Below are positions 301 through 37,772 of a stretch of DNA of 64,000 nt, one piece after another (position 1 is the stretch's first letter; the number at the start of each line of letters is the position of its first letter). The notes beneath the pieces were generated by a model. That model was given only the letters and a program-made list of their open reading frames with translations, made no database searches and was not told where the DNA came from. Source of the DNA: Clostridiaceae bacterium (GTDB lineage: Bacteria; Bacillota; Clostridia; DSM-8532); the NCBI GenBank assembly GCA_012728095.1, contig JAAYFU010000031.1, positions 1 through 64,000 of the forward strand. Direction: 5' to 3'. The translations under genes and the position numbers were made by a program.

Positions 301-313
301 AATAAAAAATAAT

Positions 314-418: not shown

Positions 419-460
419 CTTTATTAACTTAGAAAAAGAATAACATACATATATTTAAAC

Positions 461-500: not shown

Positions 501-536
501 TGAATAAAGTAAAATAACAGCAAGGGAGTCATGTAA

Positions 537-2294: not shown

Positions 2295-2321
2295 TTTTTG
2301 CTCCTCTTTTGTATCAGGCCG

Positions 2322-3716: not shown

Positions 3717-3728
3717 ATATTCCTCTCC

Positions 3729-4448: not shown

Positions 4449-4794
4449 AAAATCTACCCTATAAAAAGGAAATCCTGTTTAAATAATAATACATCTTAAA
4501 GTCTGACACAAGCGGAAGCTGTATTTTTCAGCATTGCTCAGCAATTGCTTATATTATATTATAATATAATGTAATATAAGTATAAGCCGGATAAGCAGGA
4601 ATAAGCTTTAGTTTGTCTTCCATAATCAATTCTTTCAGGATGCGTAATAATATTAAAATGTTATTATTGTTTATGCATCCGGTTACAGTTTATCGAAAAA
4701 AATTTAAAGAAAAAATTATAATTTTGTAACCAAATAATTTGTTAATTCGTCAAAGTAGTAAAAAACAAAATTGTATAGGAGGATAATAGTACCT
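4449..4794. promoter_or_regulatory. Divergent intergenic region with AT-rich palindromes
   Basis: This gap separates cysE (minus) from the NEW3 gene (plus) and holds no gene. About 100 nt upstream of cysE (roughly 4550-4590) lies a nearly perfect AT palindrome with arms CTTATATTA and TAATATAAG, inside a wider GCTTATA/TATAAGC pair. A second hairpin at 4638-4680 pairs GGATGC with GCATCC and AATAATA with TATTATT around a 9-nt loop. Neither is followed by a T-run, so both look more like protein-binding sites or cruciforms than terminators. AGGAGG at 4777-4782 serves the plus-strand gene. Roles are inference. Confidence 0.5.
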
Positions 4795-5976
4795 ATGATA
4801 AAAAGAACCTTTAACAAAAAACTTAAATTAGCTTTATTATTAGTTTTGACCTTTATTTTCACTTTTTCAATGATGCCTGTTAATAAAGCATCAGCAGCGA
4901 AGGCTCTCTCACTTTTCACTACATATCCCAGTATAGCGACGAGACCCGGTGAAAACGTAGAAACCGGCATTTCAATTACCAATAATACCGATACCGACAT
5001 GCTGGTCAACCTTAGATTTGCTTCTTTGCCGGAAGGTTGGTCAGCATACATTGAGGGTGGCGGAAAAATCATTGACAAGATTTATGTAGGTAAAAATACT
5101 CAAACATTCAGTCTTACCGTTAAGATTCCTAATGATGTTCAGCAAGGAAGATACACCGTCACCCTGGAAGCTTCATCCGGCAATATAAGTGACAGGTTAA
5201 ATCTTGAGTATTTTATAAAAGATGATATTGACAACGAAGGTCAGCTTAGGGCCACCTATACCGAATTAAAAGGCTCCAGCGACACAACTTTTGAGTTTGA
5301 GGTGAAACTTACCAATAATAAAAATGAAGCCCAGACCTATAGTCTTGGAGCCGATGTTCAGAGAGGCTGGCAAGTAAAATTCTCCGCCCAGTATGACACC
5401 AAGCAGATAGCCAGTATCTCAGTCGAACCAAATTCAACTTCTACATTGAAGGTGTCAGTCGTGCCTCCGGCAAATGTACAGGCAGGAGAATACATCATTC
5501 CCATTGCTGCAGTTTCGGCTGTCGATAATCTTGCCACTGAGCTTAAAGTGATAATCACAGGCAGTTATGCGATGGAAGTAACCACTCCTACCGGCAGGCT
5601 TAACGCTGAGACAACGGCAGGTAAGAAAACACCGATAGATATTCAGATCCAAAATACCGGAAGCACTGAACTCAGAGGTATTAAACTGACATCGTGGAAA
5701 CCGAATGGTTGGGATGTAGAATTCGAAAAGGATACAATAGACAGTATTGCCCCGGGTGAATCAACAACCGTTAAGGCTTATATTACATCAGATGAAAAAG
5801 CAATTGCCGGTGACTACGTTGTAAGTATTTATGCCGAAACACCGGAAGTAAAGGATTCTGCTGAATTCAGGGTTATGGTAAAGACCTCCACAATTTGGGG
5901 ACTGGTAGGAGTAGGGGTGATTGCTCTTCTGGCTGCAGGTTTGTACTGGATATTCAAAACTTACGGGAGACGATGA
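4795..5976 (+). CDS. NEW3-domain membrane-anchored protein of an ABC exporter operon
   Basis: 393 residues. A signal peptide (MIKRTFNKK then LALLLVLTFIFTFSMMPV, cut near ASA-AKA) leads to an extracellular region of about three immunoglobulin-like NEW3/alpha-galactosidase-associated repeats. Each has a segment of the type NNTDTDMLVNLRF...LPEGW...PNDVQQGRYTVTLEAS. A C-terminal helix (IWGLVGVGVIALLAAGLYWIF) and basic KTYGRR tail anchor it in the membrane. The track start at 4771 is a TTG that overlaps the AGGAGG itself; ATG 4795, 12 nt after it, is preferred. It is followed 3 nt later by an ABC ATPase and permease, an arrangement known for COG1470-type proteins. It may bind or present the exported substrate, but the substrate is unknown. 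Confidence 0.8.
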   Translation: MIKRTFNKKLKLALLLVLTFIFTFSMMPVNKASAAKALSLFTTYPSIATRPGENVETGISITNNTDTDMLVNLRFASLPEGWSAYIEGGGKIIDKIYVGKNTQTFSLTVKIPNDVQQGRYTVTLEASSGNISDRLNLEYFIKDDIDNEGQLRATYTELKGSSDTTFEFEVKLTNNKNEAQTYSLGADVQRGWQVKFSAQYDTKQIASISVEPNSTSTLKVSVVPPANVQAGEYIIPIAAVSAVDNLATELKVIITGSYAMEVTTPTGRLNAETTAGKKTPIDIQIQNTGSTELRGIKLTSWKPNGWDVEFEKDTIDSIAPGESTTVKAYITSDEKAIAGDYVVSIYAETPEVKDSAEFRVMVKTSTIWGLVGVGVIALLAAGLYWIFKTYGRR

Positions 5977-5979
5977 AAA

Positions 5980-6936
5980 ATGGAAAATAAAAATGTAGTA
6001 ATCAAGACCCAGGGCCTTACGAAAAAATATAAGGATTTGACCGCTGTAAACCGTCTTGATTTGGAAATCTACGAAGGCGAAATTTTTGGTCTCCTGGGAC
6101 CCAACGGAGCGGGTAAAACCACTACCATACTAATGCTTCTGGGGATGACCGAACCTACTGAAGGGTTTGCAGAAATTAACGGCCTTAATACAACAAAAGA
6201 TACCCTTAAGATTAAAAGAACCGTTGGTTATCTTCCGGATCACGTGGGTTTTTATGAAGATATGACCGGCAGGGAAAATCTTAGATTTACCGGAAGGTTA
6301 AACGGTATTGACGAAAATGAGATTGAAACCAGGATCAATGATCTGCTTGAAAGAGTCAATCTTTCAAAAGCCGGCGATAAGAAAGTCGGTACATATTCAA
6401 GGGGTATGAAGCAAAGACTTGGTATCGCCGACACGCTTATGAAAGATCCAAAAATAATTATTCTGGATGAACCTACCCTCGGTCTTGATCCTCAGGGAAT
6501 CAATGATATCCTGAACCTTATTGTTGAGCTTGCCCGCAAGGATAAAAGAACAGTACTGATATCTTCACACCTTTTGCACCAGGTTCAGAAAATATGTGAC
6601 AGGGTTGGGATTTTTGTAGGTGGTGAATTATTAGCCTGCGGTCCCATAGATACCCTGGGAGAAATGGTGTTCAAAGATAAAGAATTGACTCTTGAACTGA
6701 GTGTCTCTCCTGTCGACGATAAGTTGACGGAGTTGATAAAATCCGTTAATGAGGACGTAAAAATACGTACCGAGGAAAACAAGATATTCGTGGAATCGAA
6801 GGAAGACATAAGAAAGGCACTTGTAAAAGCGTTAAGCGACAATAATTACGATCTTTTGTACTTAAAGCAGAGCGGCAGGGATTTGGACGAGATTTACAGG
6901 CAGTACTTTCTTGAAAAGGAAGGGGTGAAAAAATGA
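5980..6936 (+). CDS. ABC transporter ATP-binding protein (ABC-2 export type)
   Basis: 318-residue cytoplasmic ATPase. It shows Walker A GPNGAGKTT near 40-48, the Q-loop region GYLPDHVGFYEDMT, an ABC signature in the YSRGMKQRLG form (first Ser-Arg-Gly instead of LSGGQ, common in drug and lantibiotic exporters), Walker B IIILDEPTLGLDPQG, and the switch His in SSHLL. The C-terminal 90 residues are the extra domain of CcmA/NatA-like subunits. ATG 5980 lies just after the NEW3 stop codon with GGGAG upstream, and the gene overlaps the permease by 4 nt (ATGA), so the three are translationally coupled. Confidence 0.92.
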   Translation: MENKNVVIKTQGLTKKYKDLTAVNRLDLEIYEGEIFGLLGPNGAGKTTTILMLLGMTEPTEGFAEINGLNTTKDTLKIKRTVGYLPDHVGFYEDMTGRENLRFTGRLNGIDENEIETRINDLLERVNLSKAGDKKVGTYSRGMKQRLGIADTLMKDPKIIILDEPTLGLDPQGINDILNLIVELARKDKRTVLISSHLLHQVQKICDRVGIFVGGELLACGPIDTLGEMVFKDKELTLELSVSPVDDKLTELIKSVNEDVKIRTEENKIFVESKEDIRKALVKALSDNNYDLLYLKQSGRDLDEIYRQYFLEKEGVKK

Positions 6937-7877
6937 AGTCAAATAGTTTACGGGTATTATACAATAAAGAACTGGCGGATCACCTTAACAGCAAAAGATT
7001 CATTATTATATTGGCCCTGGTTGCAATAACCGGAATAACTGCCATCTATGCCGCCGCATATGGCATTAGTTCGGCGGTTGAACAGGAAAATAACTCCTTC
7101 GTATTCCTCCGGCTGTTTACTGCGTCCGGGAATTCAATCCCTTCCTTTATTTCGTTTATTTCTTTCTTAGGACCGCTAATCGGTTTAGCTCTTGGATTCG
7201 ATTCAATAAACGGCGAAATAAACAGAGGGTCCTTAAGCAGGCTGTTGGCACAGCCAATCCCGAGGGATACCGTCATAAACGGAAAATTCCTTGCGGGTGT
7301 ATCCATTATAACTTTAATGGTATTTTCCATGGGTTTGGCTGTCGGAGGACTTGGAATAATTATGATAGGCGTTCCCCCGACTGCCGATGAAATACTTCGT
7401 ATACTTGTATTCCTGGTTTTAACGGTACTATATATCTCTCTTTGGCTTGCAATATCACAGCTCTTTTCGCTGCTACTGCGGCAGACTGCGACTTCTGCCC
7501 TTGCATGCATTGCGTTATGGTTGTTCCTTTCGGTTTTCGTTGGACTTCTGTCGGGCGCCATTGCCGAGGTTCTTTACCCGGCAGCAAAAGCAACGACGGT
7601 TGAAGTTTTGCTTAGAAAAAGCAAGCTTAAACTTATGCTGGACAGGATATCGCCGTCCACCGTTTATAATGAGGCTGTGGTAACAATGCTCAATCCGGGC
7701 GTAAGAACCTTGGGATTTATAACCCAGGATCAACTGGTGGGCGCCATTGCAGGCAGTTTACCATTTTTACAGAGTTTGCTGCTGATATGGCCTCATTTTA
7801 TAACTTTAATAGCTGTAACAATGATCTGCTTCGCAGTATCCTATGTATTTTTTATGAAGCAGGAAATCAGGATGTAA
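6933..7877 (+). CDS. ABC-2 type transporter permease
   Basis: 314-residue integral membrane protein, partner of the preceding ATPase. The N-terminus is cytoplasmic (KELADHLNSKRF) with a first helix at about 22-45. A cluster of hydrophobic segments covers roughly 65-90, 115-145, 155-205 and 280-305, giving about six helices with the large extracellular loop after helix 1 typical of NosY/YhaP-like exporters. The segment GLALGFDSINGEINRGSLSRLLAQPIPRD is the coupling region common to this family. The substrate cannot be read from sequence; the NEW3 partner suggests an envelope role. Confidence 0.9.
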   Translation: MKSNSLRVLYNKELADHLNSKRFIIILALVAITGITAIYAAAYGISSAVEQENNSFVFLRLFTASGNSIPSFISFISFLGPLIGLALGFDSINGEINRGSLSRLLAQPIPRDTVINGKFLAGVSIITLMVFSMGLAVGGLGIIMIGVPPTADEILRILVFLVLTVLYISLWLAISQLFSLLLRQTATSALACIALWLFLSVFVGLLSGAIAEVLYPAAKATTVEVLLRKSKLKLMLDRISPSTVYNEAVVTMLNPGVRTLGFITQDQLVGAIAGSLPFLQSLLLIWPHFITLIAVTMICFAVSYVFFMKQEIRM

Positions 7878-7911
7878 TAAAGCCTCGCTGCACAGAATAA
7901 TTTAAAAACAT

Positions 7912-7942
7912 GCCTGTCGGCTCAATCATTGGGCCGGCAGGC
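7912..7942. terminator. Strong hairpin between permease and sigma factor genes
   Basis: GCCTGTCGG and CCGGCAGGC form a 9-bp stem (one G-T pair), extended by CTCAAT/ATTGGG. On the plus strand it is followed by AAATATC, not a T-run; on the minus strand TGTTTTTAAATT follows. It may attenuate readthrough from the exporter operon into the sigma factor operon. Confidence 0.45.
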
Positions 7943-7962
7943 AAATATCAGCATGATGAGCT

Positions 7963-8523
7963 ATGAGAGTAGTGAAAAATATATCAACTGAAGACATCCG
8001 GTATGAAAATAAGTCGGATAAGGAAAAACAACTGGAATACCTGATGCTCAGGTTTGGCAAAAAGGTATATCAGTTAGCCTACTATTATTTAAGAGACAGG
8101 CAACAAGCTGAGGATATATACCAGGAGGTTTTTCTCAGGGTATATGAAAACCTGGACAGATTCAGGCAGGAAAGCAACTACTATACCTGGATATACAGGA
8201 TAACCGTTAATCTTTGTAAGGATTACTTTAAATCGGCTGTCTTCAGGAAAATTGTAACCGCAGGTATATCAAATGATTTAAGTAAATCCTGGCGCGAGAG
8301 CAATAAGCTTTTTGAAGAAGTAGAAGGCGGTGAAGTATTCAGCCTCGTGTTGGATCTTCCCAAAAAATACAGAGTGCCCTTATGTCTGCATTATATCGAT
8401 GATTTATCGGTATCGGAAATAGCCAATATACTTAATATAAGCGAAAATAACGTAAAAGTACGGCTTTACAGGGGAAGAGAAAAGCTAAAATCATTATTAT
8501 CCGGGAGAAATATAAATGAATGA
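7963..8523 (+). CDS. ECF-family RNA polymerase sigma factor
   Basis: 186 residues. Region 2 spans about 28-95 (YYLRDRQQAEDIYQEVFLRVYENLDRF and YYTWIYRITVNLCKDYF, the core-binding and -10 melting segments). Region 4 is at about 125-180 (LPKKYRVPLCLHYIDDLSVSEIANILNISENNVKVRLYRGREKLKSLL), a helix-turn-helix that reads the -35 element. It recruits RNA polymerase to a stress or envelope regulon. The next gene overlaps it by 8 nt and encodes a single-span membrane protein, the usual sigma/anti-sigma pairing. The Shine-Dalgarno site at the chosen start is weak, so the start could be a little downstream. Confidence 0.9.
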   Translation: MRVVKNISTEDIRYENKSDKEKQLEYLMLRFGKKVYQLAYYYLRDRQQAEDIYQEVFLRVYENLDRFRQESNYYTWIYRITVNLCKDYFKSAVFRKIVTAGISNDLSKSWRESNKLFEEVEGGEVFSLVLDLPKKYRVPLCLHYIDDLSVSEIANILNISENNVKVRLYRGREKLKSLLSGRNINE

Positions 8524-9517
8524 CAAGTTGAAAGAAATAATCAAGGATGAATCGAACAGATTTTTCTCCGACTTTAACAATCAAAAAATGAGTAATGCTG
8601 TCTTTTACAGAATAAGAAATCATCATAAAAAGAGCAGGAGGAAGCTTGCGAAATCCGATATTGGTTTTAATTATGCCGTGGTATCAAGGATTTCAGTGAT
8701 CCTGGCATGCTTTGTCCTTTTAATTACTTCTGCTTTCTTATTAAGAAATAAAGCGCTTTATGAAAACGACAAGAATGAAATGATAGGAGAACCTGTTTCC
8801 CAGCAAAGAATAAACTTCAGCGATTCAGGTTTTGAAGATAACTGGATTACCTTTTTCAAGATAAACAAACCGGATAAAGTACCGCAGAATAATTTGCTTG
8901 CCGTATTATGGGAAACCGGGAAAAACGGTGATTATCAAATGGCATACAGCAGTATGTTCGAAAACAGCAGTAAGCCGGAACTGGTCAGAATAATTGATTT
9001 CGACAATGAACAGCCGTCAATGATGGTTATTTCGACCAAAAACCCCGAAAAGCAGTTTATTCATTACAGGGTAATAGGATATTCGGACAGCAAGATTATC
9101 GCCTTCATGGAACAGGATTATGTAACGGGGGGTGAAATCTCGATTATTGACGGAGTAATAAAAGAAACCCGCCTTATGCCTGACGCCGGTCTTGATAAAA
9201 ATTCAGACGGTCATTTGCATAAAGTGGTTACATATTATATACCTTATCAAATAAATAAAACGGGAGACATCTTTACAACTGTGCAAAATCTTATAATAAA
9301 TAAAGGTGATTATATTGCGGTTATGGGTAATGAGAACACTCCCGTGGAAACATTGAATTCAGACCTTCTTATTGATTGGAAGCCGGAAAATGAACTTATT
9401 AATTACAATATGAACACAAAATACTTCCGAACCGAAAACGCCGGACAGGAGGAAATATATATCCGGCCGTTGAACAGTAGCGGACAGGGCCGGAAAATCT
9501 CCGTTCTGATACAATAG
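8516..9517 (+). CDS. Probable anti-sigma factor, single-span membrane protein
   Basis: 333 residues. A cytoplasmic N-terminal segment (1-50, rich in Lys and Arg) precedes one membrane helix at about 54-76 (VVSRISVILACFVLLITSAFLL) and a large extracellular domain of 255 residues. No zinc-binding HxxxCxxC anti-sigma motif is visible. The assignment rests on topology and the 8-nt overlap with the ECF sigma gene. The outer domain has a repeated ITFFKINKP / EQPSMMVIS type of beta-rich sequence and no catalytic motif I recognise, so it may be a sensor. The 3' end faces coaW across a dispersed repeat. Confidence 0.6.
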   Translation: MNDKLKEIIKDESNRFFSDFNNQKMSNAVFYRIRNHHKKSRRKLAKSDIGFNYAVVSRISVILACFVLLITSAFLLRNKALYENDKNEMIGEPVSQQRINFSDSGFEDNWITFFKINKPDKVPQNNLLAVLWETGKNGDYQMAYSSMFENSSKPELVRIIDFDNEQPSMMVISTKNPEKQFIHYRVIGYSDSKIIAFMEQDYVTGGEISIIDGVIKETRLMPDAGLDKNSDGHLHKVVTYYIPYQINKTGDIFTTVQNLIINKGDYIAVMGNENTPVETLNSDLLIDWKPENELINYNMNTKYFRTENAGQEEIYIRPLNSSGQGRKISVLIQ

Positions 9518-27179: not shown

Positions 27180-27376
27180 ATGTAATCCTGTGCGAAGCGC
27201 AGTAACTATAATGTCATTCTGAACGAGCGAAGCGAAGTGAAGAATCTTTTATTGTTAACACATAAGATCCTTCGCTAACGCTCAGGATGACCGTTTGGTC
27301 AGATTCTTCGCTTACGCTCAGAATGACATGGGAGGTGTTATCCTGAGCGAAGTGTAAGCGGAGCTGAAAGATCTTA
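27180..27376. repeat. Dispersed repeat, copy 3
   Basis: ATGTCATTCTGAACGAGCGA, AAGTGAAGAATCTT, then TAAGATCCTTCGCTAACGCT followed by CAGGATGACC, AGATTCTTCGCTTACGCTCA with GAATGACA, and a flipped TTATCCTGAGCGAAGTG. Several half-elements are nested in both orientations. It lies between the reductase start and the 3' end of the Tad-like operon. The rest of this 400-bp gap shows no gene. Confidence 0.85.
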
Positions 27377-27405: not shown

Positions 27406-28407
27406 TTACGGACGGCAGTTGGGACAGGGAAAATATCCTTCGGCGGCTGTTTCGTACGCGTTGGAAAAATAAGCTATACTGTCCCGGTTGAATCCGGGAT
27501 CCGAAACAACGGTGTTTTGTAGAAATTCACAATCACTTCTGCAATAATATAAGATCCCCTGGTAAGTATAGCCGGTTAAAGGGGCTCTTCTTATGACTCT
27601 TGCTCCCCCGAGGGCATAATGCTTATAGTTCTTGCCGGTAAGGACAGGAAAGCCCTGGGCATAAACTATGATACCCTCGTCGGTAAGAGCTCTTTTCCAG
27701 TCCGCATCATCTATTGACGGAAATTCCAGTTTAACCGAGAAGCTTTTCCCCAATGTCCATTGGTTATAATAATCCATATATGCCATGATTTTTTCTTCAA
27801 CAGAGTTTTTAACTGCCGCTAAGCGTAGATTCTCAAAGGTCTGTTTATCTTTAAAGTAAGAGATTTCTTCTTCAAATTCGCTGTAATCGCCTTCTCTAAG
27901 GGTCTGGTCAGCAATATCAAAAATATAGATTTTATTCTCAAGAGTATAACGAATGATAAATCTGTCGGATAAAACTTCTCCGATATAGTGCTGCATGGGG
28001 AACCATACATGTTTAATCTCGTTTTGCCCGTTTATGTTTTTATATTCATCGAGGGCATATAATGTAAACCCTTCACTTTCAAGAAAAACCAGGACCGGTA
28101 TGCAGGCATCCACCCTCGCCATTAATGACTGATTGCCCTTCGCGTTAAAGGAATGGTATACAGTGTCAAAAAAAACTTCAGCGGCAAGCTGCTTGGCTTC
28201 TGTAAATCTTACGTTACCTGCATATGTAAGCCCCGTTCCTTTGTTTGACAGGATGAATGCGGCATCGACGGCTGCATTGTCGATTATATTGTCATAGTAA
28301 TATCTTAATTTATTATCCTGTATCGCCGTTTCAGTTTCCTGGGCACTTATGAAAATGAAGGGAGAAATGATAATTACAAACATGATTGCGAAACTAGTAA
28401 GCTTCAT
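27406..28407 (-). CDS. Secreted or membrane-anchored protein of the Tad-like locus
   Basis: 333 residues from ATG 28407 (GGGAGGA 10 nt upstream; the track TTG start spans that site). The N-terminal hydrophobic segment SFAIMFVIIISPFIFISA, followed by QETETAIQ, acts as a signal peptide or anchor. The rest is hydrophilic and outside the cell: DNIIDNAAVDAAFILSN, a beta-rich middle part and a C-terminal CPNC pair (YFPCPNCRP). Earlier Cys (YYCRSDCEF) could form disulfides. DNAAVDAA following a hydrophobic stretch is reminiscent of TadE/TadG-like minor pilins. It overlaps the preceding gene by 14 nt and is the last gene of the operon. Confidence 0.6.
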   Translation of the reverse strand: MKLTSFAIMFVIIISPFIFISAQETETAIQDNKLRYYYDNIIDNAAVDAAFILSNKGTGLTYAGNVRFTEAKQLAAEVFFDTVYHSFNAKGNQSLMARVDACIPVLVFLESEGFTLYALDEYKNINGQNEIKHVWFPMQHYIGEVLSDRFIIRYTLENKIYIFDIADQTLREGDYSEFEEEISYFKDKQTFENLRLAAVKNSVEEKIMAYMDYYNQWTLGKSFSVKLEFPSIDDADWKRALTDEGIIVYAQGFPVLTGKNYKHYALGGARVIRRAPLTGYTYQGILYYCRSDCEFLQNTVVSDPGFNRDSIAYFSNAYETAAEGYFPCPNCRP

Positions 28408-28948
28408 TTCTAACCATTCCTCCCGCGCGAACAAATATGGCAGGGTAATCAGTATTCCTGAACAGTATCATGTCCCGAACCGCTGTTGCCATTGTTTTAC
28501 CCTTGTTTTGTACTTCGACAAAAAAAAGATCTCCCATACTCATATCATAGCGCCGGGATTTATCATGTGCCGGCAGCGTCGGATTATCCGGGTACAGGAC
28601 ACCCAAAATGTCATTTTCACCATATTTTATATGGGTTATCTCATATTCGCCGGTGAAGCTTAAATTGCCGTTAATCTGTTTATATATCGGATTAACCGAC
28701 CTTTTTATATGTGAAAGTCTGATTGTATAAGTGTTTCCCGTTGAGTTGACACGATTTGTGAATTCCATGTACATATCGGGTGTTATATACCCTGTGTCCC
28801 TGCAGGCATCAACGAACCTGTTACATTCTGCCAGAACGACATTGTAGGCGATATCATCCTGCCTGTCCAGGACAGTCATCAACGGAAAAAGAAACATTAA
28901 TACAGCGCATAATAAAAACGCTAACACATTCCAGAAAGCTCTGTCCAT
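28394..28948 (-). CDS. Pseudopilin-like single-span protein of the Tad-like locus
   Basis: 184 residues. A short N-terminus MDRAFWN is followed at once by a hydrophobic helix (VLAFLLCAVLMFLFPLMTVL, 8-27) and a soluble domain of about 155 residues. RQDDIAYNVVLAECNRFVDACRDTGYITPDMY is an amphipathic helix, as in TadE-like pilins and class III pilins. No prepilin-peptidase G-x-x-x-x-E site is seen before the helix, so it may stay unprocessed. It lies 13 nt after the previous gene. Function inferred from context. Confidence 0.55.
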   Translation of the reverse strand: MDRAFWNVLAFLLCAVLMFLFPLMTVLDRQDDIAYNVVLAECNRFVDACRDTGYITPDMYMEFTNRVNSTGNTYTIRLSHIKRSVNPIYKQINGNLSFTGEYEITHIKYGENDILGVLYPDNPTLPAHDKSRRYDMSMGDLFFVEVQNKGKTMATAVRDMILFRNTDYPAIFVRAGGMVRNEAY

Positions 28949-28961
28949 GCCTCCTCCTTTG

Positions 28962-29384
28962 CTATCGCAAGATATATTTGACTTTTATTATTCGTCCCGA
29001 ATTGTCCTTATCAAACTCAATGTCATAGAATAAAGCATGGTTTACATCCGATATTTCAACATTGGCCGCATCTCTTCCGCAAATACATATTTCTGCATTG
29101 CTCTGGTACGAGGATTCAATTGAATCGGAATACAACCTGAGCACTTCACTGTTTTTCACAAGTCTTTTGGCTTCCAGAAGCTGATGTATTACCTCTGTCC
29201 CTTTTATTGGATATTCTCCTTTTCCTCCGGTTACGGCAACCATCCTGTCATCGTTAATAAGCGCACTGCTTTGGGCAATATAATCCCGGTAATTGTTATA
29301 ATCAGAAAAGTAAAACGTTAAAGCCAATCCAAGCAGAACGACTGCCAGATCCAGGTATAATACTCTTTCAATATTACCGCTCAT
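28962..29384 (-). CDS. Small single-span protein of the Tad-like locus
   Basis: 140 residues. MSGNIERVLYLDLAVVLLGLALTFYF gives one N-terminal membrane helix at about 8-26, then a soluble domain with FSDYNNYRDYIAQSSALIND and CICGRDAANVEISDVNHALFYDIEF (a CxC pair). The size and topology are like minor pilins or pseudopilins. It is 2 nt downstream of the 192-residue gene and 13 nt before the 184-residue one. No family recognised. Confidence 0.5.
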   Translation of the reverse strand: MSGNIERVLYLDLAVVLLGLALTFYFSDYNNYRDYIAQSSALINDDRMVAVTGGKGEYPIKGTEVIHQLLEAKRLVKNSEVLRLYSDSIESSYQSNAEICICGRDAANVEISDVNHALFYDIEFDKDNSGRIIKVKYILR

Positions 29385-29386
29385 AA

Positions 29387-29965
29387 TCAGTCCTTCTGTG
29401 CAAAAATCACGCCACGAATTTTTAAGTTTGTATCGTATATCAAGTGGGATATAAACTTTCCGGAGGGATTGATATACCTGGATGTAAGGTTGGGATTCTC
29501 ACAGTCTCTTCTTTCTGCGTCCATAACAGTTTTGCTGACACTGGTTAGAAGTTCTCCGCTGTTTACCGACAGTATTACGCACCGGTTGTCAATCCGCAGC
29601 GTGCCGTTCGTTTTTGATATGTACTGGTTATAGTCTGAGATGTTCAGGCCTGTTCCGGCGGAAAGGTCCAGGTTTACAGGATTCCCGCCATTGGATCCCA
29701 GGGTTGCCACAAGGATGATAACTTCGCCGCTTCTGCCTGAAAAAGTTCCCAGGGCTGACAATACATCATCACCCTTTACTTCCTTTCCGTCATATATTCT
29801 GAATTCTTCTTCCGCCATGCTTTGGGATATTGACCCTATACGGTCATTGGCCAAACTGCTTACTTCTTTCATTCCGCCGAAAATACTCAGCCCTATGGTA
29901 ACGACTGCAATAAAGAGAAGAATTGAAACTCCCATCCAAAGCGCTTTAGATAAATTACCTTCCAT
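29387..29965 (-). CDS. Pilin-like single-span protein of the Tad-like locus
   Basis: 192 residues. MEGNLSKALWMGVSILLFIAVVTIGLSIFGGM has an N-terminal helix at 8-31, then RIGSISQSMAEEEFRIYDGKEV and a beta-rich soluble domain with a central ALGTFSGRSGEVIILVATLGSNGG stretch. The layout (short leader, long hydrophobic helix, globular C-terminus) is that of a class III/Flp-like or TadE-like pilin. No clear peptidase site is visible. It is encoded 24 nt after the platform protein gene. Confidence 0.5.
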   Translation of the reverse strand: MEGNLSKALWMGVSILLFIAVVTIGLSIFGGMKEVSSLANDRIGSISQSMAEEEFRIYDGKEVKGDDVLSALGTFSGRSGEVIILVATLGSNGGNPVNLDLSAGTGLNISDYNQYISKTNGTLRIDNRCVILSVNSGELLTSVSKTVMDAERRDCENPNLTSRYINPSGKFISHLIYDTNLKIRGVIFAQKD

Positions 29966-29989
29966 AGCCTTGCCTCCCGTAAATTTTAT

Positions 29990-32023
29990 TTATATTTGCA
30001 TTATTTGTTTATAAAATGCCGCAATACTGTTCATTCCGGACACAATCATCGGTATTATCAGGTAAAGAATAATCATCATATATACCGGCAAAAAACCTAT
30101 CATATTACCCAGGTTTTTCTTTCTCTCGACTATTCTTTCATTGGTATCTTTTCGGGTTTCGCGATTGAAATTCATTTCGTTTTCCAACTCTTCGAAGGCC
30201 TTTGCCACTTCCAAGTCCGAGCTGGCCAGCTGAAGGTTGTCTATTATAGCCAGTAAAGGCGGAAAACCAACCTCGGCTTTAAGTTCTTCCAACGCTTCAT
30301 AAGGTCCGGAACTGAAGTTCAGTATGCATTTTTGCAAGGGTTCTTTAAAATGAACCGAGAAAGCCTCCATCCATTCCAGGATCTCATGAACGTGAACCCT
30401 GTTCATATGCATCAGCATAAGAATAATTGTTTGGAACTGTGTAACTTCATCTTCCATATCAATCCTTCTTGCCTTTGCCATAATAGCAAGGCTGATGACA
30501 GGAACCCAATATCCCGCGATAAAAAGTAAGATACATACAATTAGCTGCCACCACCAGAATATATTGCGGGAGAGCGTATGGATCTTTTTATTAATTCTTT
30601 CATGGGCAGCTGTCAGTTCCTGTTTGGTTAATTGCCCGTCTTCAATCAGTCTTTCAAGTACCTGGTTCTCGTCCGGGTTTTTACCCAGGCTTAAAATAAT
30701 CTTCCTGTCAAAATCTGCGATATTTTTAAGCCTTTCATATTCCTGGTCCGATAGTTTTCCACCCAGAAAACCGTCAGGCATCTGTGGCAAATACAGGACA
30801 GAATACCTTGTGTATGCGTTTAACCCTAAAAACATGCAAATGCCGGAAATAAACGCGATAAGCCCGATAAGAAGCCTGCGGACATACAGGGTGTATATGT
30901 TCAAAGGCGCCATAGCGCTTTTTATAAGCTCCGTCAAATACTGCCGCTTTTTTGAGTACTGCCGGGGCACCAGTCGGTCCACGACCGGATGAAGCAGTTT
31001 TTCATATATCCGTTCTTCAAATGATTTTTTAACATATCCGATATTGATATGATCATCAAAACGCTGAAGTTTTCTTAAAATCATATAGCAGACAACTGAA
31101 GAAAAAACGACTCCAATACCCAGGACAATGCCCAACCTGCTGGAATAGAATGATTCCAGAGGCGCGAAGCTGCCTGCCGCCCAGTTTCTCAGGGGTTTTA
31201 AGAAAAACAAAGGAAGAAGGGATATTGTGGTAAGGCTTTTCAAAGCGTACTTTAGCTTTTCCCGCTTGTATAATTCAGCCTTGATTTCGCTGCCCAGATA
31301 TGCTATGCACCGTACAAAGACCGAACTTCCATTGACAACCGTGTCTCCGTATTCCTTGGTAATGAAAACTATACCTGCAAGCATTTTAAAATATTTATTG
31401 GGAGCCGTTTCATAATACTTTTCCAGTTCCGCTTCCACATCCTTGGAAAAAAGAATGTCATTAATCCGCTCGGCCTGGGTATAAACTTCGAAAGTCCCTT
31501 TCCGGTTCAGAAGTTCACAAGCTTCCAGGTTTGCGTCCTCGACCGATTTATGCTCATAATATTTATGTCTGAGAAATTCCAGATATTTAATCTGCTGTTT
31601 AAGAAGTCTGTCCTGAAGATTGCTTATGTACAAATCTATAATTGTGTCCGCGATAAAAGACAAAAGTATCGCAAATAATATCATGATCAAAAAGTCGCGG
31701 GTAAGTATCCAGAAAATGATAACAACAGAAACATACGCCGCCGCTGAAAACAAAAGAAGGATAACAGCAGTTTTTCTGATATTTCTTTCATCAGAGACAG
31801 TATAGATTTCAAGTCTTTTCCTGATATTCAGCAGAAGCTTTTTTAATACGGGAATTCTGCTGAATCTGCGGTACAGTAAAATATAAAATGTCGGATATTT
31901 TTCCCCTATTTGTCTTAAGTTTTTATCCAGTTTATTCCGCTTCTTTGCATAAACCAGGTTTGCCATTATCAATAAGAACGCGAGAAAGAAACAGAAAACT
32001 CCGATTATGCCATATGTATTCAA
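29990..32023 (-). CDS. Fused TadB-TadC-like inner-membrane platform protein
   Basis: 677 residues. In other Tad systems, TadB and TadC are two T2SF-domain proteins of about 300 residues. Here one chain seems to hold both. The first half has helices at 5-27, 85-107, 110-135 and 275-320 with RLLKQQIKYLEFLRHKYYEHKSVEDANLEACELL, a T2SF-like cytosolic region. The second half has helices near 385-410 and 495-520, then EDEVTQFQTIILMLMHMNRVHVHEILEWMEAFSVHF, the other T2SF-like region, and a last helix (VYMMIILYLIIPMIVSGM). It would be the membrane base on which the ATPase acts. The gene overlaps the ATPase gene by 4 nt. Confidence 0.7.
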   Translation of the reverse strand: MNTYGIIGVFCFFLAFLLIMANLVYAKKRNKLDKNLRQIGEKYPTFYILLYRRFSRIPVLKKLLLNIRKRLEIYTVSDERNIRKTAVILLLFSAAAYVSVVIIFWILTRDFLIMILFAILLSFIADTIIDLYISNLQDRLLKQQIKYLEFLRHKYYEHKSVEDANLEACELLNRKGTFEVYTQAERINDILFSKDVEAELEKYYETAPNKYFKMLAGIVFITKEYGDTVVNGSSVFVRCIAYLGSEIKAELYKREKLKYALKSLTTISLLPLFFLKPLRNWAAGSFAPLESFYSSRLGIVLGIGVVFSSVVCYMILRKLQRFDDHINIGYVKKSFEERIYEKLLHPVVDRLVPRQYSKKRQYLTELIKSAMAPLNIYTLYVRRLLIGLIAFISGICMFLGLNAYTRYSVLYLPQMPDGFLGGKLSDQEYERLKNIADFDRKIILSLGKNPDENQVLERLIEDGQLTKQELTAAHERINKKIHTLSRNIFWWWQLIVCILLFIAGYWVPVISLAIMAKARRIDMEDEVTQFQTIILMLMHMNRVHVHEILEWMEAFSVHFKEPLQKCILNFSSGPYEALEELKAEVGFPPLLAIIDNLQLASSDLEVAKAFEELENEMNFNRETRKDTNERIVERKKNLGNMIGFLPVYMMIILYLIIPMIVSGMNSIAAFYKQIMQI

Positions 32024-33894
32024 ACTCTCACCCCGCTTTCCAGGTTGAAATGCAAGTTTAGGAAATCGTCGAATTGCCGTGCATCTTCGGCTGTCATGGC
32101 GCGTTTCATCCTCTCTGTCCTTTCTTTTGAAACAGGGTTGACCACAACATACCGGCCATTTCTGAATTCAATAATATTGCGGCACTCAAATATCCTTTTA
32201 TCGGTCATCTTCTTATAATACTCAGCGGTTGTTTCCATGAAAGAAGCTGTTTTATCAGTTATATTCTTTTCATAAACAAAATTGTCAGGCAGTGGCGTAT
32301 CCTTTAGTTCAACTATTTCTGTGATTCGTTCAATATATCTTTTGCCTTCGTAATCTCTTGCAAGATGTATGTCAAAATCAAGGACCGAAACCACCTGCTG
32401 TTCGGCTATTTTTTCATTTGTGAACATTTCGCATTTCAATAATGAATTCCGGAGAGAATAAACCAGATCCCGCGTAGTTTTTGCATGATGGGTAAAAAGA
32501 GTAAACAGCGAAGCCACCTGGGCCATCTGTATCATCCATGCCGCTACCGGATCGGTTGCCACTTCTCCCAGTATGTTCACGCTGCCGTCTGTCTTTTTCT
32601 GAATATCAAGTCCCATTTGCCCCGAAATAGTTTCAGTCTCTCTGAAGGACAGGATATTTCTTCTAGGGTATAAACGTCTTAGATTCAGTTCAAAAGCCAT
32701 TTCCTGGATACGAAGTGTTAAGGTGGCATAAATATGTTCAATCATGGCCATAAGCATTGTGGTTTTCCCGCTTCCCTGCTGCCCGGTCACGGCTGTTATC
32801 ATCCCGCCCTTTACTATGTATTTGATCAGGTTTATGGGCAAATTGGCATTCTCATCCTGAATAAGCATTTCCAACGTTACATTTTTAATGTAAAATTTGC
32901 GGACAAAAAAAGCCCAGGATTCAGAAAACGGCGGCCGTACCACAAGGACACGGCTTCCGTCCTTCATCTCGTTTACCCTGTAGCCTGTAGCCTCTGAAAG
33001 CTGGCCTCCCCGATTGTAACGGTATATTATCTGGCATACCCTTTTTAGCTCGCTTTCACTTTCAAAGCTTAAAAAATCAAGTTTTATGGATTTGCCTTTA
33101 TAGAAAATCCATACGCTTTCATAGTTTTTCTGGTAACTTGCGGCAATATCCATTTGCTGCCGGAAGTTCGAAAAATCAAAATGGTCCGTGGTTACCCCGG
33201 AAACTCCGGCAGATACGCCGTCAATATTCATATCCCTGATTTCATCTATGACGCCTAACCCTTTATATTGTTCATACACCGCCTGGGTGATAACCTCGAG
33301 TTTGTCTTCCTTCGTGAGGATAAAACCCATCCTGTCATAAATATGCTCAATCTCCTGCCTGGATATAAAATAACAATATTCTCCATCCTCGTTCTTTTTC
33401 AGTTTATCCAGCTCAAACTCATCAATTATATACGAAAGCGCATCGGCTCCATGTTTCTTCTTCATCATGTGAAGTAGAATTGCAAACTTATGCTTTGTTG
33501 ACAGAAGGTATGGATTATTGAAAGGAATGATTAAATTGAGCTTTTCATCAGGGATATAGGCATGAAGAATATCATAAATTAAAGCCTTGACAAACTGTTT
33601 ATCCACAATGGAGCCGTGCATACATACCTTGAGCGCTTTTTTAAGTTCCGCCCTTTTATTGGCTTGCTTTTTAAACTCCACCTCGTTGAGGCCAAGCTCA
33701 AATAAATTAGTTCTTGTTATCTCGTTAATGCAATCCCTGACATATTCGATAAGTCCCGGAATTGTGTACTTCTGGGGATCTTCATTTTCGCCTGTCTCCA
33801 TATGGTACTTTCTTGATACAAAGAAAAAGTACAGGGATATACCCAGGCCAAGCAGTATTAAAATGAGCATTACCAGGTTTATGGCAAACGGCAA
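32020..33894 (-). CDS. CpaF/TadA-like secretion ATPase with N-terminal membrane anchor
   Basis: 624 residues. A hydrophobic N-terminal segment (NLVMLILILLGLGISLYFFFV, 6-26) is unusual for this normally soluble family. An N-terminal helical domain (about 45-340) is followed by the RecA-like core. Walker A is TGQQGSGKTT near 395. An Asp/Glu-box-like region FRETETISGQMG and a Walker B-like NILGEVATDPVAAW come next, where CpaF has GEVRGxEA. The His-box is THHAKTTRDL in place of T-x-HANS. It should power assembly or export at the membrane. Its 3' end overlaps the platform gene and its 5' end overlaps the MinD-like gene by 16 nt. Confidence 0.75.
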   Translation of the reverse strand: MPFAINLVMLILILLGLGISLYFFFVSRKYHMETGENEDPQKYTIPGLIEYVRDCINEITRTNLFELGLNEVEFKKQANKRAELKKALKVCMHGSIVDKQFVKALIYDILHAYIPDEKLNLIIPFNNPYLLSTKHKFAILLHMMKKKHGADALSYIIDEFELDKLKKNEDGEYCYFISRQEIEHIYDRMGFILTKEDKLEVITQAVYEQYKGLGVIDEIRDMNIDGVSAGVSGVTTDHFDFSNFRQQMDIAASYQKNYESVWIFYKGKSIKLDFLSFESESELKRVCQIIYRYNRGGQLSEATGYRVNEMKDGSRVLVVRPPFSESWAFFVRKFYIKNVTLEMLIQDENANLPINLIKYIVKGGMITAVTGQQGSGKTTMLMAMIEHIYATLTLRIQEMAFELNLRRLYPRRNILSFRETETISGQMGLDIQKKTDGSVNILGEVATDPVAAWMIQMAQVASLFTLFTHHAKTTRDLVYSLRNSLLKCEMFTNEKIAEQQVVSVLDFDIHLARDYEGKRYIERITEIVELKDTPLPDNFVYEKNITDKTASFMETTAEYYKKMTDKRIFECRNIIEFRNGRYVVVNPVSKERTERMKRAMTAEDARQFDDFLNLHFNLESGVRV

Positions 33895-34694
33895 CTTTTA
33901 TCGCACCCCTCAACAATGTACTCACAGAGCCGGTTCAAAGCGCTGAATATCTCTTTTTCTTCGCCGCGTTTTGTATTTCGGTTAAATGCGACATATTCAT
34001 ATACTCTTCCGGTGTTCAAAGCATCCAATAAATGTGAACTATTGGGAATTTCAAAAACGTAATTTCTCTTTATTCCAAATTTTCTTGCAAGGTTGGCTCC
34101 CGTTATGCCACTGTTCTTTTCATATCGCGCCAAAACAAATGCAGCCTGTTTTTGCCCTAAAAACTCATACTCATTAAAAAGGGCGGCCAGGTCATCCAGT
34201 AATAAACTGTTCTGATTTACACAAAACACTATTATGTCCGAATTTTTAAGAAGACTTAAACTGTTGTTTACTTTAATACCGCTGTGAACATCCAGTATTA
34301 TAAGGTCATAAAACTCTTTCGCCAGGCCGAGTACGCTTAAGAAAAGCTCCTGGTCTTCCTGCGGCATTATTTGCTTTTTCTCGGATCCCAAAAGCAAGTC
34401 CATCCTGTGATTTTTCAGGACCGAATATGTATAATCCGCAATCATTTCCGGCTTAAGTCTTCCGTTTTTCACGAGTCTTAACAGCGCATCGATTCCCTGG
34501 TTATTCAGTCTTCCGAAACTGTTACTCTGTTTTGGCTTTTTAAACAAATAACCTTCTATAGCGTTTTTTTCTGTTTGGTTATGAGCAATCAACGTTTTTA
34601 AAGCCGTATTCTGTGCTATGAATGAGGCCACTGCTGCCGTGGTAGTGCTTGTCGCTCCCTGTCCGTGCATGTTTGACCAGAAGGAAACCTGCAT
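33879..34694 (-). CDS. CpaE/MinD-like protein with degraded P-loop
   Basis: 271 residues. MQVSFWSNMHGQGATSTTTAAVASF is positioned like the deviant Walker A (KGGxGKT) of MinD/ParA proteins, but the catalytic Lys is missing (HGQGATSTT). The rest of the fold is kept: FYDLIILDVHSGI (Walker B-like), NSDIIVFCVNQNSLLLDDL, and FVLARYEKNSGITGANLARKFG. CpaE proteins localise Tad machines to the cell pole, and some lack the ATP site. It sits between the CpaF-like gene and a second MinD-like gene, so a scaffolding role is likely (inference). Confidence 0.65.
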   Translation of the reverse strand: MQVSFWSNMHGQGATSTTTAAVASFIAQNTALKTLIAHNQTEKNAIEGYLFKKPKQSNSFGRLNNQGIDALLRLVKNGRLKPEMIADYTYSVLKNHRMDLLLGSEKKQIMPQEDQELFLSVLGLAKEFYDLIILDVHSGIKVNNSLSLLKNSDIIVFCVNQNSLLLDDLAALFNEYEFLGQKQAAFVLARYEKNSGITGANLARKFGIKRNYVFEIPNSSHLLDALNTGRVYEYVAFNRNTKRGEEKEIFSALNRLCEYIVEGCDKSCRLP

Positions 34695-34695
34695 C

Positions 34696-35343
34696 CTATT
34701 TCATCCTTTCAGCTCTTCTTAACACTTCTTTTGCCGCTTTTGAATCCAAAGAAAAAATATATTGGATTGTTTTTCTGAGGGAATTTTTGATAGGCAAAGA
34801 CAGATTCCTTACAACTAATTTGTTTGAATACTGACTTTCAATCATCACAATACGGTTTTTTTCCTCAAAGTATATTTCATCGGTTCCGGCAATCCTGGTG
34901 AAGCTTGGTAAACTATGCTCCCAGTAGCTGTTTAAAAAATGACTTCCTATTTTGCAGTACTCCATAATATTAAGATAGATAATATAGATATTTAATGACG
35001 GGTGCGCCCAGGTGTATTCTTCGGCTAATTTTATACAGCTTTCAAGCTTGCCCCTGGTTGTTTCGCTAATTGCTATTACCTTAAAATCCTCCGGAATATC
35101 CATATATTCTTCCGCATCAATAAAATTGCCGTTATTTTCCGAAATCTTTGACAAAGGGTTTTCCCCGTCTTTAAGCAGCACAAAATCAATCCCGCAATAT
35201 TCATAACTATCGGCGACTTCATCAAATGAATATGCCTTTTTTGACAATACGGTTATTTTTGCGTGGCATGACACTATTTTAGCAAGGCATAGTATTAAAA
35301 AACGCTTTTCCTCGGTACTCTCTCCCAGAAACACTACATTCAT
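34696..35343 (-). CDS. Unrecognised cytosolic protein, possible degenerate MinD-like fold
   Basis: 215 residues without signal or membrane segments. MNVVFLGESTEEKRFLILCLAKIV starts like a beta strand plus P-loop helix, but no Gly-rich ATP site remains. It is followed by HAKITVLSKKAYSFDE, IDFVLLKDGE and a C-terminal helix (SLRKTIQYIFSLDSKAAKEVLRRAERMK). The spacing to the next gene is 1 nt. It may be a third ATP-free MinD relative. I do not recognise a family; conserved position in an operon is the only clue. Confidence 0.5.
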   Translation of the reverse strand: MNVVFLGESTEEKRFLILCLAKIVSCHAKITVLSKKAYSFDEVADSYEYCGIDFVLLKDGENPLSKISENNGNFIDAEEYMDIPEDFKVIAISETTRGKLESCIKLAEEYTWAHPSLNIYIIYLNIMEYCKIGSHFLNSYWEHSLPSFTRIAGTDEIYFEEKNRIVMIESQYSNKLVVRNLSLPIKNSLRKTIQYIFSLDSKAAKEVLRRAERMK

Positions 35344-35354
35344 ATGAAGCCCTC

Positions 35355-36287
35355 CTAAAGATTATCTTCCACACTCGTTTCGGTTCCCGATTCAAAGGTT
35401 TTGCTTTCGGGAATATCATGGAGAATTTGAACATTATTATCATTGAACACTTTGTTTCTCCCTGAATACTGGTGATCCTCATTTATTCTTTCCTCAAACA
35501 GCCGGCGGTTACGGGTCTCCAGCTCTGTAACGGCTTTATTGATAATATTGGGATTTTCCAGGATCAATTTTTGAACGTCTAAATTCACCGGATAAGTTAT
35601 AGCCGCCTGATCCTGGATATCCGGAGCTATATATGGCACGGCATATAGTATTGTTCCTTCCACGATACTTGCGTCGACAATGGCGCTGGCCATTCTCAGT
35701 ATCTCTTCTTCGCCGGCATGAAACCATATTATGTTTCTTTGAGCATTTTCCGATCTTTCCAAATCGGTAACCTGCTTCTTGGAAAGGACAATATAATCCA
35801 GCCCGTTTGGAAACATGATCCTGATGTCTATGAATTCATTTTTCTGAAGTTTTTGCGGAAGGTTTAAAACCGAGTATTCCATTAGTCTCATATCATGGGG
35901 ATAATCCTGTTTTCCATATAAAAGTGATTCGGTTATTACCGTATTGGACAGGATATCGCATCTTATCACCTTTCCGACAGCCAGAGAAGGATCGGTTACT
36001 GCATCTGCCGGTTTAAGACTTTCGCTTATCTCAGCCGGAGCAATGTCTTTATCCTGTAAAATATCTCCTGATTTTTTATCTGTCGTGATTTTATATACCA
36101 GACTTGTAGGATTATTCTGCCTGTATTCTTCCAATGCCAATTGCCTGATTTGCAGCTTTTCCTGTTCGGTCAACCGATATGTATTATTACGGTAATATAA
36201 ATAGCCTGCTGCCAAAACTGCCAATGAAAGAGAAAGGCCTGCAATAAAACCCAGTAGAATCCTGTAACGCTGTGGCCTTGAAATCAC
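35355..36287 (-). CDS. CpaB/SAF-domain-like protein of the Tad-like locus
   Basis: 310 residues from the GTG at 36287. AGGAGG lies 7 nt upstream, so the 14 extra residues on the track precede the true start. One membrane helix (RILLGFIAGLSLSLAVLAAGYLYY) at about 8-31 is followed by a coiled segment and a SAF/CpaB-like domain outside the membrane. The domain contains SGDILQDKDIAPAEI, GKVIRCDILSNTVITESLL and LPQKLQKNEFIDIRIMFPNGLDYIVLSKK, matching the CpaB scheme (promote, then release through a beta-clip). In Tad pili CpaB/RcpC guides assembly. It is preceded by the kinase gene with a gap of 17 nt. Confidence 0.7.
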   Translation of the reverse strand: MISRPQRYRILLGFIAGLSLSLAVLAAGYLYYRNNTYRLTEQEKLQIRQLALEEYRQNNPTSLVYKITTDKKSGDILQDKDIAPAEISESLKPADAVTDPSLAVGKVIRCDILSNTVITESLLYGKQDYPHDMRLMEYSVLNLPQKLQKNEFIDIRIMFPNGLDYIVLSKKQVTDLERSENAQRNIIWFHAGEEEILRMASAIVDASIVEGTILYAVPYIAPDIQDQAAITYPVNLDVQKLILENPNIINKAVTELETRNRRLFEERINEDHQYSGRNKVFNDNNVQILHDIPESKTFESGTETSVEDNL

Positions 36288-36304
36288 CTTTTTACCTCCT
36301 TGTC

Positions 36305-37723
36305 TCATAATTGCCCTGCTAATTTGCATATTTCATTAAGCACAACCCCTATACGCTTATGATCTTCCGTATTCAGATAAAAAGGATTACTGACGGTTGA
36401 ATAAAGGACCAGCCTGTTGGAGCCCAGAAGTTTTTTTAATTTTTGATGTTCATAACTTTGAGAAATATTTGCCGTATAAATCCATTCTTCTTTTGCAAGC
36501 GATTCAATTTTTTGGTGGCATTCCGAAAAAAGGCTATACTTCCAGGGTACATTCGGACATACTATAATCCTGATATCAGCATGATTAAACTGGATCATTT
36601 TTCTTTCGGTATTCAATTGTCCGAGATCAAGGATTATCGCATCGATGCCTTTTCTGGATACCACTCCGAAATCTGGCGCATTGGGATAGAAAACCAGGTT
36701 ATTCGCTTCGAACCGGTTTTCGCTTTGGAGCTTTACCTCTCCCAGCTCATCCAGATACTCTCTCATTCTGTCAAAATCCCCGCTGGAATTGAGTTCAACC
36801 AATACAGAACTGACTTTGTTACTTGATAAGTATTTTCCTATGGCAAGGCACAGAGACGTTACACCGCTGGCAGGAAGCAAAGAGGCAATTGCTATTACTC
36901 CCTTAAAGCTTTTTTCTGCTTTTCTATTGTAAAAAAACAATCTTTCGGGAATTATCATCCTGCCAAGTTCTTCAATTGCTTCTTCGCAGTTCTGAAACCT
37001 TTTGCCGGGATCGGTTTGTGCAAGTTTCAGGATAAAATGAATATATCTTTGTGCAATACCCGCTTTCTTTAGTACGTCTTTCAATTTCTCAGACCCCTGT
37101 TTTACAGGATGGATTCCCGTAGCAAGATGGAAAATGGTCATCCCCAGACTGTACAAGTCTGTTCTCTGGTCAGTCTGTCCGACTCCATACTGCTCAGGGG
37201 CCGCGTAACCTTGGGTTCCTATGTAGACTGTATCTTCTGTCTTTTCTTTGGTGTAATACCTGGCGGCTCCAAAGTCAACAAGCCTTAGTTGGCCTATGTC
37301 ATCCACTATCAGATTTGCAGGTTTTAAATCTCCGTATATTATGGGAGGATTCCTGCTGTGAAGATATTTTAATACATCCAGCAGATCTCTCGTCCATTTA
37401 AGAAGCGTTTTTTCAGGTATTTTCCCCTGGTATTCCAAAACCTTAAGTAAATTTGAGCCGGGAATGTAGTCCATTACTATGTAGTAATTATCCTCATCCT
37501 CTGTTAAATCGGCTATCCTGGGCAGCATAGGATGACTGAGATTTTTCAGTATATCTATTTCCTCCATATCAACCGAAAGGCGGGGGCTGTTTTTATACAA
37601 AACCTTAATAGCCCAGAAATTGTTCAATACTATGTTTTCTGCCAAATATACAGCCGAAGTGCCCCCTTCGCCAAGAAAGTCAATTATTCTGTATTTGTCG
37701 GCTATTATTCTATCTTTCATCAT
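36305..37723 (-). CDS. Ser/Thr protein kinase fused to a CpaE/ParA-like domain
   Basis: 472 residues from ATG 37723 (AGGTGAGG is 7 nt upstream; the track TTG start includes that site). Residues about 1-265 are a Hanks-type kinase: glycine loop FLGEGGTSAVYLAEN, AIKVLYK with the ATP-anchoring Lys, a catalytic loop YGDLKPANL where the usual HRD is YGD, DFGAARYY, and the activation loop GTQGYAAPEQYG with a regulatory Thr/Tyr region. From 275 on comes a MinD/CpaE-like domain (KGVIAIASLLPASGVTSLCLAIGKYL, VSSVLVELNSSGDF, IDAIILDLGQL) without the Walker Lys. The kinase may phosphorylate pilus or secretion partners. It is the first gene of the operon. Confidence 0.8.
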   Translation of the reverse strand: MMKDRIIADKYRIIDFLGEGGTSAVYLAENIVLNNFWAIKVLYKNSPRLSVDMEEIDILKNLSHPMLPRIADLTEDEDNYYIVMDYIPGSNLLKVLEYQGKIPEKTLLKWTRDLLDVLKYLHSRNPPIIYGDLKPANLIVDDIGQLRLVDFGAARYYTKEKTEDTVYIGTQGYAAPEQYGVGQTDQRTDLYSLGMTIFHLATGIHPVKQGSEKLKDVLKKAGIAQRYIHFILKLAQTDPGKRFQNCEEAIEELGRMIIPERLFFYNRKAEKSFKGVIAIASLLPASGVTSLCLAIGKYLSSNKVSSVLVELNSSGDFDRMREYLDELGEVKLQSENRFEANNLVFYPNAPDFGVVSRKGIDAIILDLGQLNTERKMIQFNHADIRIIVCPNVPWKYSLFSECHQKIESLAKEEWIYTANISQSYEHQKLKKLLGSNRLVLYSTVSNPFYLNTEDHKRIGVVLNEICKLAGQL

Positions 37724-37729
37724 TATAAC

Positions 37730-37772
37730 GACCTCACCTGACAATGAAACTATGTTTTCTACGGGTGAGGTC
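37730..37772 (-). promoter_or_regulatory. Hairpin that can mask the ribosome site of the kinase gene
   Basis: On the minus strand GACCTCACC pairs with GGTGAGGTC in a perfect 9-bp stem (ten with a G-T) with a loop of about 25 nt. The right arm contains AGGTGAGG, the Shine-Dalgarno site of the first operon gene. When folded, translation would be blocked, so a trans-acting RNA, protein or temperature change could open it. It could also be a DNA operator. Confidence 0.55.

Follow-up and report, generated by a model that had tools for sequence, protein, structure and literature searches.

A ten-gene operon led by a protein kinase encodes a very divergent relative of the bacterial Tad pilus machine, and across hundreds of genomes its genes appear and disappear together with a family of giant secreted proteins (DUF5704) that share one tail and swap their heads, which suggests that the machine exists to handle those proteins. 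The operon lies on the minus strand of a 64,000-nucleotide stretch of DNA (the window; positions 1 to 64,000 of contig JAAYFU010000031.1, assembly GCA_012728095.1, Clostridiaceae bacterium) and spans positions 27406-37744. An earlier note, made from the sequence alone, described ten closely spaced minus-strand genes with Tad-like parts behind a kinase-CpaE fusion, without TadV, secretin or an obvious Flp, and this observation is confirmed. All ten open reading frames are present, with spacing between successive genes of -25, +11, +1, -16, -4, +24, +2, +13, and -14 nt. Gene 10 more likely starts at ATG 28407, where a ribosome-binding site (GGGAGGAAT) lies just upstream, than at TTG 28434, the start of the longest open reading frame. 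In comparison with two congeners, dN/dS is 0.03-0.18 for nine genes and 0.29-0.32 for gene 8 wherever dS can be computed, indicating purifying selection.

Coordinates and assignments of the ten genes of the operon in the window
Gene	Position	Strand	Assignment
1	36305..37744	-	Ser/Thr protein kinase (res. 18-250) fused to a degenerate CpaE/MinD-like domain (res. ~280-479)
2	35355..36329	-	One-TM SAF-domain protein, CpaB/RcpC-like
3	34696..35343	-	CpaE-like protein without Walker A
4	33879..34694	-	CpaE/TadZ-like protein with deviant Walker A (HGQGATST)
5	32020..33894	-	CpaF/TadA-type motor ATPase with conserved N-terminal TM helix
6	29990..32023	-	Fused TadB-TadC-like platform, 677 aa
7	29387..29965	-	Candidate major pilin-like subunit, no leader
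8	28962..29384	-	Fast-evolving paralogue of gene 7, candidate minor subunit
9	28394..28948	-	Conserved one-TM extracytoplasmic protein of unknown fold; specific marker of the system
10	27406..28407	-	Predicted 55-residue N-terminal helix, alpha/beta body, C-terminal Ada-like four-Cys mini-domain; candidate minor/tip subunit

Searches with known families and profile-profile comparisons identify the core components, although several matches are weak. The kinase is of the Hanks type (PF00069, E=1.9e-45), and its catalytic Lys, Asp, DFG, and APE motifs are conserved in 43-45 of 45 homologs, while the window copy has Gly in place of the Arg that precedes the catalytic Asp (YGD for YRD). The C-terminal domain of gene 1, gene 3, and gene 4 are three related CpaE/MinD-like domains (gene 4 versus the gene 1 C-domain, 96%; gene 3 versus the gene 1 C-domain, 90-95%; gene 1 C-domain versus a classic CpaE, 90%; unrelated controls below 1%), whose Walker A is deviant (gene 1 C-domain and gene 4) or missing (gene 3); the Pfam match of gene 4 (PF13614, E=9.5e-4) falls below the cut-off. 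Gene 2 contains a SAF domain (PF08666, E=3.2e-6), with a CpaB match (TIGR03177, E=0.0017) that is below the cut-off; RcpC forms a dodecameric ring of suitable bore in Pseudomonas (PMC12307814). Gene 5 matches TIGR03819 at E=2.2e-9, below the equivalog cut-off, and its profile finds the solved CpaF structures (PDB 8rkd and 9e24) at E~1e-18 (best 9e-19); the Walker A, GEV, and His-box residues are invariant, and a TM helix precedes the ATPase in all but the sister-family member (locus L039 of genome G032). Gene 6 is not recognized as T2SSF by hmmscan, nor are any of 16 platform proteins searched in this way, but profile-profile comparison with hhalign ties its N-half to classic TadB/TadC at 92-95% and its C-half at 27-61%, against 9% or less for reversed controls and 1% or less for unrelated proteins. 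Genes 3, 7, 8, 9, and 10 have no convincing Pfam or TIGRFAM family, no credible Pfam match was found in any of 41 members of the gene 9 family (which is conserved as one family), and PDB profile searches with genes 6, 7, 9, and 10 returned nothing significant.

The four small proteins are pilin-like only in architecture. Gene 7 is modeled by AF2 (pLDDT 82) as one helix from residue 3 to 56 followed by a beta domain, and gene 8 is its paralogue by profile comparison (98.7%). The model of gene 10 has a pLDDT of 86.5, and a Foldseek search gave a local match of its C-terminus to N-Ada (1u8b; probability 1.00 over 59 residues, but E=0.13), with four Cys in Clostridia and mostly two or fewer in Bacilli. 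Neither model has a significant Foldseek match in the PDB for gene 7 or for the body of gene 10, nor does gene 7 match viral models. Comparisons with hhalign also reject genes 7-10 as TadE (probability 1.3% or less against a TadE sequence, with Pfam likewise negative) and reject a relationship of gene 7 to gene 9 or 10. Gene 7 appears to lack a prepilin leader: in 37 of 39 relatives a Shine-Dalgarno sequence stands 6-13 nt before a Met that is followed by six to ten residues and then the TM helix, and only 1 of 45 has anything resembling a G..xxxE site. By contrast, the Flp pilin of the ordinary Tad locus in the same genome has a textbook KKGQG-MVEYG site. The Ada-like end of gene 10, together with a VirB11/TrbB similarity of the motor, could alternatively point to a DNA-uptake or conjugation-related machine whose gene 10 binds DNA. 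This is considered very unlikely, since the metal-site cysteines are lost in most Bacilli, no DNA-processing or uptake gene was seen at the loci, and the partner genes (see below) encode surface proteins.

The operon is Tad-like but not a classic member of the Flp/Tad systems. No Flp, TadE, secretin, or TadV lies in the operon; absence of a secretin is expected in monoderms. The window's genome nevertheless contains two ordinary Tad loci on another contig (C70), one with Flp (the only Flp_Fap match in the genome) and TadE, and one with TadE proteins, DUF5702, and a DUF6382-FHA protein, as well as one A24 peptidase far away on contig C65. In the CpaF tree, the CpaF of this operon falls in a deep, long-branched clade separate from all classic CpaF (support 0.998). 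A24 peptidases were found in 25 of 33 relatives and none was found in five otherwise good relatives (G010, G025, G028-G030), but independence from a prepilin peptidase cannot be read from these absences because A24 is common, the relatives are mostly MAGs, and divergent A24 proteins may be missed. A co-occurrence test with A24 across 399 genomes of the phylum was uninformative (355 of 399 positive). Since most genomes contain an A24 peptidase, processing at a non-canonical site cannot be excluded. One alternative is that the operon is an ordinary monoderm Tad pilus diverged in sequence, with genes 7 and 8 as pilins processed by the distant A24 peptidase and DUF5704 as merely a linked surface protein. 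In favor of this view, the core parts match Tad one for one, A24 is frequent among relatives, and monoderm Tad systems often lack TadV locally and lack the secretin (PMC6916266, PMC6668835). However, the coexistence of ordinary Tad loci with Flp/TadE in the same genome, the lack of a prepilin or Flp motif in gene 7, the fused platform, the membrane-anchored motor, the three CpaE-like domains, and the near-exclusive co-occurrence with DUF5704 make this explanation unlikely, though more likely than the other alternatives.

The operon is conserved over long evolutionary distances. Thirty of 33 genomes of the window's order have a close gene 5 homolog, the three without one being two incomplete genomes (G002 and G016) and G032, which has the divergent L039 version. 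Within the window's family, 21 of 24 relatives' loci show all ten genes in order, and the other three are cut by contig ends, so that the arrangement is not due to chance. A scan of named genomes returned 233 relatives in Bacilli as well as Clostridia (e.g., Thermoclostridium caenicola, Paenibacillus, Saccharibacillus, Tumebacillus, Alkaliphilus, and Vallitaleaceae), with the same gene order. The kinase is absent in 8 of 80 loci (it is missing in Tumebacillus and five other loci), so it is read as a regulator rather than a core part, and kinase and CpaE domain are separate genes in loci L078, L083, and L084.

Clustering of the flanking genes exposed a recurrent pair, consisting of an SLH (PF00395) or copper-amine-oxidase-N (CuAO-N; PF07833) protein of 300-400 aa followed by a secreted protein of about 1100-1250 aa with DUF5704 (PF18964). 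The pair is found in distant taxa, downstream of gene 10 in Tumebacillus, Paenibacillus rubinfantis, P. gallinarum, and clostridial SKW257 (downstream loci L075, L080, L081, L082, L096, and L127), inside the cassette in a Vallitaleaceae genome (L078), and just upstream of the kinase in the window's own genus (L045/L065). Amongst 250 Paenibacillaceae genomes, the cassette marker (gene 9) and DUF5704 occur together in 134, the cassette alone in 5 (four of them weak hits), DUF5704 alone in 1, and neither in 110 (Fisher p 1e-63, not corrected for phylogeny). The single genome with DUF5704 alone (G632) still has a gene 10 remnant next to its DUF5704. In 399 genomes of the phylum, DUF5704 was found only in cassette carriers, and at least 41 cassettes in 38 genomes lie within 10 kb of a DUF5704 gene. 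Paralogues within one genome differ in the N-terminal fifth to third (about 20-65% identity per tenth) but are 83-100% identical in the C-terminal third, in both Bacilli and Clostridia (genomes G554, G131, G375, and G026); in the complete genome G026, two copies at distant sites differ essentially only in the first ~220 residues. In the window's genome, the family appears only as two 41-codon 3' ends at the ends of contigs C3 and C59, not next to this cassette, as would be expected if near-identical copies had collapsed in assembly, although this is an inference. No paper naming DUF5704 was found in the literature searched.

In a few genomes the cassette is associated with a type VII secretion system (T7SS), raising the alternative that the machine carries LXG/RHS toxins or other T7SS effectors through the wall. 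EssC, WXG100, and RHS/LXG genes directly follow the cassette in loci L128 and L129 and in genome G554 and flank it in L102; in G554, the DUF5704 pairs alternate with RHS/LXG-type toxin genes beside a T7SS. Tad pilus genes have also been reported next to T7SSg and T7SSh (Garrett et al. 2024, PMC11217815). However, only 3 of 80 cassette loci carry EssC, and no WXG100 gene was found in 32 of 33 genomes of the window's order, including the window's own, so a T7SS accessory is rejected as the general function and this explanation is very unlikely.

The explanation that best fits these data, held with moderate confidence, is that the operon encodes a complete single-membrane, Tad-derived, type IV filament-like (pseudopilus-type) machine. 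In this view, a membrane-tethered CpaF hexamer drives the fused platform, which moves or polymerizes unprocessed pilin-like subunits (gene 7 major, gene 8 minor, and genes 9 and 10 as larger minor or tip parts) into the wall zone, inside or next to a ring of the SAF protein, while three CpaE-like domains, one tethered to a presumably active Ser/Thr kinase, place and gate the machine. Its dedicated client would be the pair of secreted wall proteins, the giant DUF5704 protein having a constant C-terminus, by which the pair would be recognized, and an exchangeable N-terminal head, and the machine would push, anchor, or display this pair at or beyond the cell wall and S-layer. Gene content, homologies, conservation, neighborhood, co-occurrence, and the head/tail pattern are demonstrated by the analysis, whereas filament formation, the lack of processing, phosphorylation and kinase control, and the role of DUF5704 as client rather than partner are inferred. 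Weighing against this model are the lack of a fold match for gene 7 and the body of gene 10, the missing kinase in some loci, the presence in the window's genome of only two 41-codon 3' ends of DUF5704, both at contig ends and not next to this cassette, the A24 peptidase in most genomes, and what looks, on our reading, like an ordinary signal peptide at the start of the DUF5704 proteins, which may need no machine to cross the membrane. The interpretation in the earlier note, of a kinase-regulated, single-membrane Tad relative that exports or builds something other than a classic Flp pilus, is partly supported: a kinase-led, secretin-free relative that does not build a classic Flp pilus is borne out, while the "something other" is most likely the DUF5704 proteins, which could not have been seen in the note because no intact copy is assembled in this genome. 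More tentatively, the operon may represent a distinct class of type IV filament machine that works without prepilin processing, is switched by a kinase, and is dedicated to launching or presenting giant wall-anchored DUF5704 proteins whose heads are exchanged between paralogues (an interchangeable-head surface weapon or adhesin), and is coupled by some Paenibacillus to T7SS/RHS toxin arrays. Widespread Bacillota, including culturable Paenibacillus and Saccharibacillus, carry this undescribed Tad-derived machine, in some genomes in addition to ordinary Tad loci. Leaderless pilin-like subunits would challenge the rule that type IV filaments need prepilin peptidase, and the near-exclusive link to DUF5704 gives the machine a testable purpose, and a family of unknown function a context, in organisms where gene deletion is feasible.

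Amongst known systems, studies of monoderm Tad pili and a survey of type IV filaments (PMC6916266, PMC6668835) do not, in the parts consulted, describe such a system, and the generic model of the survey requires recognizable platform and pilin profiles, which these proteins would probably fail. The Tad genes beside T7SSg/T7SSh in Acetivibrio and Paenibacillus (PMC11217815) very probably include this cassette, given its position next to EssC in L128, L129, and G554, but are noted there only as "Tad pilus genes", with no description of the divergence, the kinase, or DUF5704 in the parts consulted, and WXG100 genes are absent from nearly all of the window's order. A study of Paenibacillus motility observed pilus-like loci without pilin (PMC5072692). 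The monoderm Tad/Flp (type IVc) pilus (e.g., Bifidobacterium breve, Micrococcus luteus) shares the CpaF/TadA motor, the TadB/TadC-type platform, TadZ/CpaE, and the absence of a secretin, whereas here the platform is fused, the motor is membrane-anchored, a SAF protein is kept, three CpaE-like domains and a kinase are present, Flp, TadE/F, and TadV are lacking in the locus, the candidate subunits appear leaderless, and DUF5704 is a partner. The Kil system of Myxococcus (contact-dependent killing; PMC8460266) is likewise a divergent Tad machine with phospho-signaling parts (FHA on the KilF ATPase) and provides a precedent for such a link, but it is diderm, with a secretin and Flp-type pilin, has FHA domains rather than a kinase, and has a different cargo. 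The sister-family version in L039 retains kinase-CpaE, CpaB, CpaE, and CpaF in the same order, but is very divergent, lacks gene 3, lies beside a classic Tad locus, and has two separate TadB and TadC candidates in the place of the two platform halves, although their own profile link to TadB/TadC is weak.

Paralogues of DUF5704 with a hypervariable N-terminus and a near-identical C-terminus, each located behind its own SLH or CuAO-N gene, were observed in the genomes designated G026, G554, and G131, a pattern that looks like head swapping by recombination or gene conversion. In genome G554 (loci L215-L217) and at the loci L128 and L102, the cassette is followed directly by T7SS genes (EssC, WXG100, VWA) and by RHS/LXG-type toxin genes that alternate with SLH-DUF5704 pairs. 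Amongst the 80 cassette loci from the scan of named genomes, five of the eight loci lacking the kinase have SLH/CuAO-DUF5704 directly downstream, whereas most of the kinase-containing loci do not; the kinase may matter where the client genes lie elsewhere. A relative of the cassette from gut Clostridia (locus L106) also lacks the kinase and contains four gene 7-like proteins (MENASKAL...), perhaps representing a gut subtype. Between trxB and the operon, the window contains a dispersed palindromic repeat (GATGACCGTTTGGTCAGATTCTTCGC...; translated as VILSVSEES/VILSVSEGS), copies of which are found elsewhere in the window.

Coordinates of the additional features observed at the cassette loci, at related loci, and within the window
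Feature	Locus	Genome and contig	Position
DUF5704 paralogue	L200	G026	5876-9481
DUF5704 paralogue	L201	G026	5599-9180
DUF5704 paralogues	L215, L216	G554
DUF5704 paralogue(s)	L218	G131
Cassette followed by T7SS and toxin genes	L215-L217	G554, C1	5634000-5693999
Cassette followed by T7SS and toxin genes	L128		16965-21888
Cassette followed by T7SS and toxin genes	L102
Second ordinary Tad locus	L034	G000 (genome of the window), C70	3750-14461
Sister-family version of the cassette	L039	G032	1-7518
Dispersed palindromic repeat	window	G000	27211-27329; 55929; 61567
Cassette relative without kinase	L106	gut Clostridia

The second ordinary Tad locus in the genome of the window ends with a DUF6382-FHA protein, placing a phosphothreonine reader in the same genome as the kinase-led machine. 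The sister-family version of the cassette is very divergent, with separate TadB and TadC candidates and no gene 3, and is found directly beside a classic Tad locus.
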